Made by a program: the position numbers and the translations under genes
In this document: positions 3,222 to 33,440 of the stretch, in pieces
Layout: the number at the start of each line of letters is the position of its first letter
How positions within the stretch are numbered: the stretch's first letter is position 1
Assembly (NCBI RefSeq): GCF_002846555.1
Contig: NZ_PJMS01000001.1
Coordinates: 4,262,501-4,326,500 of the forward strand
DNA: 64,000 nt
DNA from: Aquimarina sp. MAR_2010_214
GTDB lineage: Bacteria; Bacteroidota; Bacteroidia; Flavobacteriales; Flavobacteriaceae
Direction of reading: 5' to 3'
Notes under the pieces: generated by a model
Seen by the model: the letters and a program-made list of their open reading frames with translations, nothing else
What the model was told of the DNA's origin: nothing
Databases searched by the model: none

Positions 3222-3527
3222 CACCTTTTGGTATAATTTTTTACAGAAAATAAGAAACGTGCTGATTTTAAAAAAGATAGAACACGAAGATAAGAAATTT
3301 AATCAGAATAGAGTTGGATTTTTTATACTTTTTCTGTGTTTCAATACCCAGATATGGATACAATGTATTGTTTTGTATTAGGGATGGAAGTGGCATCCTT
3401 TTGTTAATCCTATATAGTTTATATAAGATATTCCTTATAACCTATAGTTCTAAACAACTTTATTCTCTGCATAACAAAAGATATAACGTACAGCCCGGCC
3501 CCATTTTTTTTGGGGAAATACCCTAAA
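3222..3527. other. AT-rich gap upstream of rRNA promoters
   Basis: I see no gene here. The short open frames starting at 3157 and 3314 run through promoter DNA, lack ribosome-binding context, and look like chance. The stretch may contribute UP-element-like AT-rich DNA to the distal rRNA promoter. Confidence 0.5.
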
Positions 3528-31681: not shown

Positions 31682-31736
31682 AATTACACTACAACAAGAT
31701 GTAAACATCGCTATCAAGAGACTCGTTTTTACTATC

Positions 31737-32099
31737 GTTTCTAATTGCATCTCGATACACGCTCGTTCCTCACGTACTCGATGTGACGTAGCGTTTGTGT
31801 TGTGACATAGCGTGTTAGACCGTCTGTTCGAGTGGTTTTTCGTAATGTAATGGAGAAAAATTGTATCGAGAACCCATCATATTATCATGTTATCGTTTTT
31901 AATTGCGTCTCGATACATTTTTTCTACGCTATGCTTCAAAAAAACACTCGACGTGACGTAGCGTGTTAGCTAAAGAGAGGATACCGAGAACCCATCATAT
32001 TATCGTTTTCAAATGCATCTCGATACACGCTCGTTCCTCACGCACTCGATGTGACGTAGCGTTTGTGTTGTGACGTAGCGTGTTAGCCCGTCAGTTCGA
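31737..32099 (+). repeat. REP-like repeat array, left part
   Basis: Tandem, partly alternating modules repeat here: ATCTCGATACACGCTCGTTC-CTCACGTACTCGATGTGACG-TAGCG (31746 and 32017), CGTCTGTTCGAGTGG-TTTTTCGTAATG-TAATGGAGAAAAATTG (31826), and GTATCGAGAACCCATCATAT. The units carry internal inverted CTCGA/TCGAG elements, so single strands would form hairpins. The array breaks at 32099, inside the motif CGTCAGTTCGA|GTGG, where IS110 is inserted, and resumes at 33298. Confidence 0.85.
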
Positions 32100-32102
32100 T
32101 TT

Positions 32103-33086
32103 CTATGACAATACCAAACGGTTTTCATAAAAAGATTTGTTTTTTATTAATGCCATTGCGATATGTATTAGTTTGTTTCTAACAGCATTGAGTACACTCA
32201 TTTTGTTCTTACCTTCTTCTACTTTTCTCAAGTAAAAATGTTGAAGATCGTTATCCATTCTTACTGCTCTCATAGCTGCCATTTGAAGCACGGATTTAAG
32301 TTGCATATCCGCCATTTTTGATACTCTTGGTTTTGTCTTTAGACTTGTTCCACTTTGTTGTTCGAATGGAACAACGCCAGCAAAACAAGCTAGTTTTCTC
32401 GGATTAGTCAATCGCACAAAACCATCAGTTTTCACAGCTAAAGTCCAAGCTGTAACTGATCCTATTCCTGGTATAGTTCTGATACGTTCTATGTCCTTTT
32501 TCAAAACAGAATCATTAGCTATCTCCTCTTTAATCAATTTTTCTATAGCCGCTATATGTTTATTAATCTGCTCAATTTCTTTTAAATTGATTTTCATTGA
32601 GGAACTTATTATTTTAGTCCTTTTAACTGTTTTAAGCTCCTTATTTTGTTGTTTAATAGCCTGTCTAGTTTTTACCTTATGTCTACGTTGACTCATCAGT
32701 ATTTTTATATTTTGTACAGCCTCACTTATGGGCTTCCAGCAATCAAAATCTTGATAGTTCCTTTCAATAAAAGTAGCAATGCGCTTAGCATCAACTTTAT
32801 CATTCTTACCACGAACTAAACCGATGCTTCGTTTAATGTGCTTAGGATCGATCACATAAACATTAAATGAATAATCCTTCAAAACTTCATATAAATTATA
32901 ATTATAAAGACCAGTATTTTCCATTGCAATAAAGATCTCAGCATCTAAAGTAGTTATCTGCTTAAAGAGTTTTTTAATCGCTTTGATTTTATTTTCAATC
33001 TTAAAGAATGCTTCTGATTTCTGATCAACTAAACAAATATCTAATGTTTTTTTACTAATTTCAATTCCTAAATAAATACTTTTCAT
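32103..33086 (-). CDS. IS110 family recombinase (DEDD + serine transposase)
   Basis: The 327-aa protein has an N-terminal RuvC-like DEDD domain (first acidic position Glu9 in LGIEISKK where Asp is usual, Glu56 in AMENTGLYN, Asp96 and Asp99 in GKNDKVDAKR), a central coiled coil (about 120-190), and the C-terminal Tnp_20 domain with helix-hairpin-helix IRTIPGIGSVTAWTL and the catalytic serine candidate in FEQQSGTSLKTKPR. This architecture is the RNA-guided IS110 recombinase. Full length; the Asp-to-Glu change at position 9 may or may not be tolerated. Confidence 0.93.
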   Translation of the reverse strand: MKSIYLGIEISKKTLDICLVDQKSEAFFKIENKIKAIKKLFKQITTLDAEIFIAMENTGLYNYNLYEVLKDYSFNVYVIDPKHIKRSIGLVRGKNDKVDAKRIATFIERNYQDFDCWKPISEAVQNIKILMSQRRHKVKTRQAIKQQNKELKTVKRTKIISSSMKINLKEIEQINKHIAAIEKLIKEEIANDSVLKKDIERIRTIPGIGSVTAWTLAVKTDGFVRLTNPRKLACFAGVVPFEQQSGTSLKTKPRVSKMADMQLKSVLQMAAMRAVRMDNDLQHFYLRKVEEGKNKMSVLNAVRNKLIHIAMALIKNKSFYENRLVLS

Positions 33087-33115
33087 AATTTTACCTCTCT
33101 GAATGAAAAGAGCAT

Positions 33116-33254
33116 TTTCATCATAACTCGACTCCTTGATAATGGGCTTAAAATCCCGAATTTCTATTAGAGATTGTTGATGAAAGAAAGAACTTAAGTC
33201 TAAATCGAACTATGAAGTTTACCCTTCTGAGTGTTATTAGTGTACTTAAGTTCT
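33116..33254 (-). ncRNA. Predicted bridge RNA of the IS110 element
   Basis: Two perfect-stem hairpins occupy the recombinase leader. The first in transcription order has arms AGAACTTAAGT/ACTTAAGTTCT (33254-33244, 33199-33189) and a 44-nt loop. Its loop contains CACTC (33233-33229), identical to the left target, and AGTTCGAT, the reverse complement of ATCGAACT at the right junction. The second has arms TTTCATCA/TGATGAAA (33185-33178, 33123-33116) and a 54-nt loop with ATAGAAAT (33167-33160), identical to the element's right end (32106-32099), and AAGGAG (33137-33132), complementary to CTCCTT at its left end (33299-33294). This is the target-loop/donor-loop layout known for IS621. RNA ends are not determined. 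Confidence 0.8.
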
Positions 33255-33297
33255 GCTCTTTTTTATTTCAATAAATATAATTATGCAAGTCTAAAGG

Positions 33298-33440
33298 AGT
33301 GGTTTTTCGTAATGTAATGGAGAAAAATTGTATCGAGAACCCAGCATGTTATCGTTTTTAAATGCATCTCGATACACGCTCGTTCCTCACGTACTCGATG
33401 TGACGTAGCGTTTGTGTTGTGAGGTAGTGAGTTGGAGTTA
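33298..33440 (+). repeat. REP-like repeat array, right part
   Basis: This continues the array after IS110: GTGGTTTTTCGTAATG, GAAAAATTGTATCGAGAACC, GCATCTCGATACACGCTCG, ACTCGATGTGACGTAGCG. Joined to the left part it restores complete units, showing the element went into an existing repeat. Confidence 0.85.

Follow-up and report, generated by a model that had tools for sequence, protein, structure and literature searches.

An IS110-group insertion sequence in the genome of Aquimarina sp. MAR_2010_214 has a left-end leader that very probably encodes a bridge RNA, in which loop 1 would choose a REP-like target and loop 2 the donor junction. The element was analysed in a window of 64,000 nt from the one contig (5.98 Mb) that makes up the genome, and eight full copies of it were found in this contig. 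Judged by sequence comparison, the bridge RNA is real, and the element joins the IS110 group as a new member that differs from the others in clade-specific ways. The strength of the bridge RNA case comes from the comparison with relatives.

The element, its copies and its junctions

The transposase was matched to PF01548 and PF02371, both above the Pfam cutoffs, and to the NCBIfam model transpos_IS110 with 194 bits (cutoff 140). Among solved structures the best match by protein sequence was ISCro4 (PDB 9t56; 1.1e-21, residues 5-316), and IS621 was matched at 1.5e-19. A DEDD RuvC-like domain together with a Tnp domain holding the catalytic serine places the element, by its sequence, in the IS110 group, and the layout of that group was also found, with a long non-coding left end (the 210-nt leader) upstream of the transposase gene and a short right end (Table 1).

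Table 1. Window positions of the element, its junctions and the parts of its leader.
Feature	Position	Strand	Remarks
IS110 element including both TC cores	32098..33298	-	ends set by eight copies at different places
Element proper, 1197 nt	32100..33296	-	left core 33297-33298, right core 32098-32099
IS110-family transposase, 327 aa	32103..33086	-	Pfam, NCBIfam and PDB matches
Left-end leader, 210 nt, with predicted bridge RNA	33087..33296	-	identical in 8/8 genomic copies
Right end (left donor) ATAGAAA + core TC	32098..32106	-	overlaps transposase stop codon TAG
Left target + core AAAAACCACTC in REP-like repeat	33297..33307	-	eight-copy junctions
Core + right target TCGAACTGA in REP-like repeat	32091..32099	-	eight-copy junctions
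Outer stem 5' arm AAAAGAGCA	33254..33262	-	base 33254 common with TBL arm as drawn
Target-binding hairpin (TBL) 5' arm AGAACTTAAGT	33244..33254	-	
Left target guide (LTG) + core ATAACACTC	33229..33237	-	columns covary with left flank
Right target guide (RTG), core, handshake bases AGTTCGATTT	33202..33211	-	complements integrated right junction; covaries with right flank
Target-binding hairpin 3' arm ACTTAAGTTCT	33189..33199	-	
Donor-binding hairpin (DBL) 5' arm TTTCATCA	33178..33185	-	
Left donor guide (LDG) + core ATAGAAATT	33159..33167	-	first 8 nt equal right end ATAGAAAT
Right donor guide (RDG), core, handshake bases AAGGAGT	33131..33137	-	complements integrated left junction ACTCCTT
Donor-binding hairpin 3' arm TGATGAAA	33116..33123	-	
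Outer stem 3' arm TGCTCTTTT	33106..33114	-	before possible ribosome-binding site 33094-33100

Catalytic residues were mapped to D11, E60, D102, D105 and S241 of IS621 by our own reading of the PDB alignment, with a 2-residue chain offset assumed. E56, D96, D99 and S245 are all present in the window transposase, and the first Asp of the DEDD set is changed to Glu (codon 9, window 33060-33062, minus strand); Asp stands at this position in all 87 other rows with a residue there, including the seven siblings. The sibling copies are 98-99% identical to the window copy in protein, which differs from them at 7-8 positions compared with 0-4 among the siblings themselves. With Glu for the first Asp, the window copy may be unable to move on its own and may depend on transposase supplied by the sibling copies. 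All eight copies are 1197 nt long.

Further traces of such elements were noted in the same genome. At L009 (G000:C1:423113-423153) a solo right end of about 41 bp with ATAGAAATCGAATTGAC stands with the rest of the element absent, and is possibly a deletion remnant. Four C-terminal matches of 31% identity (L018-L021), in open frames of 353 aa, apparently form a second IS110-family group. Elsewhere in the window, at 3373-3504, a Flavo-1 RNA was matched by Rfam (47.3 bits, cutoff 42).

The junctions were fixed by the eight genomic copies, independently of the guides, as CACTC/CTTTAG at the left and ATAGAAA/TCGAAYTGA at the right, with one left flank reading AACTC. CTTTAG is preceded by CCACTC in three copies, AGCACTC in three, ATCACTC in one and AGAACTC in one; ATAGAAA is followed by TCGAACTGA in one copy and by TCGAATTGA in the other seven. 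From these left and right junction sequences the core was taken as TC and the target as approximately CACTCGAAYTGA. This 12-mer occurs exactly at 33 sites in the genome (reversed control, 0); the looser AACCACTCGAAC with one mismatch allowed gave 39 genome sites against 36 for its control, and no clear excess. Among the 33 sites are three pairs that face outward, with spacings of 103, 147 and 103 bp, and in each pair a target site stands at either end of a palindromic REP-like repeat.

All eight copies sit in this one REP-like repeat family. When the flanks were joined across each element and compared with intact repeats, using 30 of the 33 exact target sites, all eight matched over the junction with 89-100% identity over 36-74 nt (copy 3, 89% over 47 nt; copy 5, 100% over 74 nt), and the best hits were without gaps. 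Insertion therefore took place without target duplication, at a core TC common to target and donor. REP-like repeats lie on both sides of the window copy (31720-32100 and 33298-33440), and an uninterrupted target is present at window 31826-31837 (AACCACTCGAAC, genome position 4294326).

Leader architecture and guide matches in the window copy

Two perfect-stem hairpins were described in the first-pass annotation of the leader and were found as stated, AGAACTTAAGT/ACTTAAGTTCT pairing over 11 bp around 44 nt and TTTCATCA/TGATGAAA over 8 bp around 54 nt, with the target loop 5' of the donor loop as in a bridge RNA. The fold of the whole leader is only moderately better than that of its shuffles (z -2.1; 5 of 200 shuffles equally good). 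When arms of different RNAs were cross-paired (n=55), z was 23 for the TBL stem and 12 for the DBL stem, and among 21 sequences 11 of the 12 TBL pairs are changed on both sides in at least one sequence.

An outer stem around both hairpins gave z 7.1 by cross-pairing over all 55 RNAs, 4.2 over the close 30 and 4.8 over the distant 25. The close group was split off by locus number and includes L217 and L229, which are distant on the tree, and the outer-stem segments were chosen after the stems of single sequences had been seen, so that this comparison was made without blinding. The two arms change in step, as in AAAAGAGCA/TGCTCTTTT, TTGAGAAA/TTTCTCAA, AATCAACAC/GTGTTGATT and ATGCTAAC/GTTAGCGT; the outer stems of single sequences are often weak. 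An initial placement, in which the 3' segment started beyond the arm, was rejected because no signal was seen with it (score 676, permuted mean 694).

RNAalifold, applied to alignment A3, recovered the TBL stem together with a short pairing of GGG with CCC; the DBL and the outer stem were not recovered from this alignment, which was attributed to its misaligned 3' part. Rfam 15 gave no match in the leader, either at the gathering score or at E up to 1. The motif TATATTTAT (window 33271-33279, minus strand) lies in the left end, and a similar motif is found about 20 nt into the left end in several relatives; it might be a Bacteroidota -7 promoter box.

The guide segments that had been proposed from the window sequence were compared with the junctions. 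In loop 1, CACTC is identical to the left-target end plus core over 5 contiguous nt, as had been claimed, and the window site fits at 5 of 7 bases and both core bases. Outside the core the LTG fits the eight copies at 5, 5, 5, 4, 4, 4, 4 and 3 of 7 bases, and with only 3-5 of 7 non-core bases fitting the repeat it is an imperfect guide. The proposed complement of the right junction, AGTTCGA with TCGAACT, holds over its 7 nt, and at the integrated right junction, AAATCGAACT, it continues to 10 nt (AGTTCGATTT). In loop 2, the reported identity of ATAGAAAT with the right end of the element stands over all 8 nt. The fourth claim, of AAGGAG pairing with CTCCTT at the core plus left end, was right for 5 nt (AAGGA with TCCTT) and wrong for the sixth pair, which falls on a flank base; this sixth base, G, and the T after it pair on the target side and bring the match with the integrated left junction ACTCCTT to 7 nt.

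The chance of such matches was estimated from 20,000 dinucleotide shuffles of the loops. Matches as good were obtained at frequencies of 0.045 (LTG), 0.005 (RTG), 0.009 (LDG) and 0.25 (RDG) for the single guides, so that the RDG match by itself is not significant, and at 5e-5 and 0.02 for the 10-nt RTG-junction and the RDG-junction matches, respectively. The agreement of all four guides with the observed junctions, on which the first-pass annotation had laid its weight, was reached at once in 0 of the 20,000 shuffles.

Guides, flanks and ends in relatives

It had been proposed that homologues be aligned to see whether loop-1 segments covary with flanks and loop-2 segments with element ends. 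In a contig scan the best 80 of 407 relatives were kept, from Bacteroidota groups. Ends of relatives were set by motifs and not by target guides (left CCTTTAG with at most one mismatch, right ATAGAAAT). End motifs were passed by 56 of 89 loci, of which 52 had usable flanks and gave 38 distinct RNAs; the matrix of flank columns against RNA columns was computed on 36 distinct RNAs with 12 right-flank bases, using 300 permutations.

Loop-1 positions covary with the flanks of their own element along the LTG and RTG diagonals. There were 26 column pairs with z > 4, and 13 of them, including the 11 highest, lie on these diagonals, where z > 4 was reached at every position from left -2 to -9 and from right +2 to +6. 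On the LTG diagonal (same strand) the base before the core matches in 31 of 36 RNAs against 12.8 expected, and on the RTG diagonal (complement) the fourth target base matches in 28 of 36 against 9.2. The twelfth-ranked pair (z 5.0) joins the base before the core to the DBL position after the core, which is the handshake position of IS621, and the first core base gave z 4.6 with the RDG core column. These two, among the 13 off-diagonal pairs, fit RDG/handshake pairing; the other 11 have z 4.1-4.7.

A scan of the 38 RNAs with 20,000 permutations gave 284 for the left target (9 nt) against its own RNA, with a permuted maximum of 244, and 168 for the right target (5 nt), with a permuted maximum of 159. 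At 7 nt the free-position signal of the right target was weak (200, with the highest permutation at 199), since a short string finds matches at many places, and the right target was resolved by the register-fixed matrix. Controls taken further out stayed close to their means (186, mean 181.8; 174, mean 173.2). Those on the wrong strand rose above theirs (left 186, mean 177.3; right 194, mean 180.3; sd 3.8), and some effect of relatedness or composition is therefore present. L136, whose right end was mis-set (its actual end, with one mismatch, is at the stop codon), was kept in the 38-RNA scan, the 36-RNA matrix and the core tabulations.

In the 55-row set described below, the LTG, scored as the best of 20 offsets, matches at 7/7 in 19 rows, 6 in 8, 5 in 16, 4 in 11 and 3 in 1; the fit is poor in about a fifth of the rows, and L129, scored 4 with its end mis-set, fits 7/7 elsewhere. 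At 64-70% identity the RTG tracks the right target through GAACT (L001, L112), GACAT (L114) and GACCT (L117), each at 5/5, with misses in the same group at L115 (4/5), L111 (4/5) and L110 (3/5). The right flank of L196 ends at the contig end and gives no RTG reading, and the RTGs of L158 (1/5) and L168 (flank cut) were not really located. The left target of L114, ACATTAT, fits its LTG poorly and its RTG fits 5/5; this is possibly an off-target insertion. One RNA was found at two insertion sites with similar targets in a Mesonia MAG (L115/L116), and one at seven sites with similar targets in the Flavobacteriales MAG K_MB250 (L153, L154, L156, L157, L159, L171, L172).

For loop 2, the DBL anchor (up to four substitutions) was present in 78 of the 80 contig-scan loci, and a stretch matching the locus's own LDG at 7/8 or better lay no more than about 60 nt from the end of the coding region in 74 of these 78; no such stretch was found within that distance in L141, L162, L185 and L186. 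The LDG classes in these loci were ATAGAAAT, ATAGTAAT, ATAGATAT, ATGGAAAT, GTAGAAAT and ATAGTTAT. In a stricter set, 150 loci were examined, 69 were dropped for lack of the anchor or end motif, and the 81 complete loci gave 55 distinct RNAs. The LDG equals the right end over 7 nt in 55/55 of these, an agreement that is partly by construction because rows were kept only at 6/7 or better; the informative part is that each of the five LDG classes (46, 4, 3, 1 and 1 rows) matches its own right end. Opposite the left end, the RDG hardly varies among relatives.

The suggestion that this is a native bridge RNA specific for the REP-like repeat was thus upheld by several lines: eight identical leaders all within that repeat family, loop 1 covarying with flanks, five loop-2 classes matching their own right ends, both stems kept through compensatory change, and a transposase related to those of IS621 and ISCro4. 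Loop 1 follows flanks that lie outside the element, and a regulator need not spell host flanks. This makes it unlikely that control of transposase translation is the main task of the hairpins and that the guide matches are a by-product of descent shared by leader and ends, even though the outer 3' arm stands directly before the start region, where it might affect the ribosome-binding site, and small RNAs and 5'-UTR structure reportedly regulate the ISPpu9 transposase (PMC8450116, available text). Translation regulation could be an additional role of the leader. Still less probable is recognition of the repeat and the ends by the protein alone, with the RNA taking no part; a DNA-reading protein would equally place eight copies in one repeat family, but in relatives that are 64-70% identical a change in the right target goes with a change in the RTG, and the solved relatives are described as RNA-guided in the accessible text of PMC11208158. 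Chance as the source of all four matches, each of them short and the 5-nt RDG match arising in 25% of shuffles, is scarcely credible beside their joint absence from the shuffles and the covariation in relatives.

Unequal cores and comparison with known systems

The likeness of the element to IS621 of E. coli, as far as given in the available text of PMC11208160 and PMC11208158, extends to the RuvC-like and Tnp domains, a bridge RNA in the left end, a target loop followed by a donor loop, the order and polarity of the four guides, a REP target, and a handshake position adjoining the core. By analogy with IS621, the leader would be transcribed and the RNA bound in a ribonucleoprotein and used, with a circular form, cut sites and cut order as in that system. 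In loop 1 the left guide, resembling the left target and core, and the right guide, complementing the right target, would choose a site at the end of the REP-like repeat. In loop 2 the left guide, equal to the right end and first core base, and the right guide, complementing the core and left end, would choose the circular donor junction. The recombinase would cut after the core and exchange the top strands, and the right-guide bases at the core and just beyond would then pair with the incoming partner strand.

Unlike IS621, whose core is CT, the present element has the core TC, with a constant second base C and not T; a CT core is a trait of IS621 rather than of the whole family. The right end of the Aquimarina element also differs in overlapping the stop codon. 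A predicted outer stem surrounds both hairpins here, and the fold predicted for the window leader has no separate 5' stem-loop, whereas the RNA of IS621 is described as a 5' stem-loop followed by two looped stems, with no enclosing stem mentioned in the available text (PMC11208160). The 5' stem-loop is a trait of IS621 and is not known to define all bridge RNAs. The ISEc21 seekRNA, also of the IS110 family, is similar in that an upstream non-coding region gives a guide RNA matching both target strands, and differs in its linear site inside IS3-family transposase genes and its 74-nt target-matching RNA; a natural redirection is described for ISMch6, a relative of ISEc21 (both from the accessible portion of PMC11187229). 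Insertion sequences in REP sequences are known, the likeness being the REP insertion; RNA guides go unmentioned in the available text (PMC1525189).

The donor core is TC in 55/55 relatives, and the target core is TC in 28, GC in 14, AC in 12 and CC in 1, with L129 counted as TC (its left end was mis-set in the 55-row set, giving AA, and motif-based ends give TC); target and donor cores are unlike in 27 of 55. The LTG carries the first core base of the target in 35 of 36 rows at that column. The RDG core base is A for 27 of 28 TC targets, T for 12 of 12 AC targets, T (11) or C (3) for GC targets and T for the CC target. Of the 27 unequal-core elements, 26 thus have an RDG core base that pairs with the target base (15 Watson-Crick, 11 G-U), and in none of the 27 does it pair with the T of the donor itself. 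The RTG core was checked on the 36-row alignment, made without a GA pattern, because in the 55-row set this base is given by construction, the search pattern having demanded GA. It reads GA followed by T in 36/36 rows, including all 10 unequal-core rows, where its core base is the partner of the donor T rather than of the target base.

On the 55-row tree the first base of the target core changes three times and the RDG base twice, and with only two or three independent pairs no significance can be attached to the core result; the Fisher value of 1.3e-8 for core against RDG base ignores relatedness and is unusable as a probability. Most of the contrast is one deep split of the tree, and independent switches are few. 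Core and RDG agree at the deep split and at L124, L138/L140/L143 (G with C) and L160, and disagree at L175 and L136 (RDG T with a TC target) and at L188 (C opposite T).

According to the available text of PMC11208158, the structures of IS621 have RTG and RDG paired to the incoming core once the top strands have been exchanged, and the exchange is promoted by the handshake bases at positions 6-7. Because the two cores of IS621 are equal, pairing before exchange and pairing after it cannot be told apart in that system. The unequal cores suggest the same logic at position 8. The reading slightly favoured by these comparisons is that in this Bacteroidota branch of IS110 the cores may differ, the donor always having TC and the target TC, AC, GC or CC, and that the right guides are written for the partner's core, with selection for pairing after and not before top-strand exchange. 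The RDG would follow the target core (A for TC, T for AC, T or C for GC), the RTG would keep an A that pairs with the donor T, and handshake pairing would extend into the core. Unequal cores or flavobacterial bridge RNAs were not reported in the literature surveyed, as far as its texts were available, with preprints and most subscription papers outside its scope.

Sequence comparison thus points to a new Bacteroidota clade with bridge RNAs, whose natural targets vary (REP-like repeats, GACAAGCTC-type sites and others) and which would be a source of recombinases with another core. With its unequal-core relatives the handshake model of strand exchange could be tested both in evolution and by experiment, and unequal cores could loosen the rule that target and donor have the same core.
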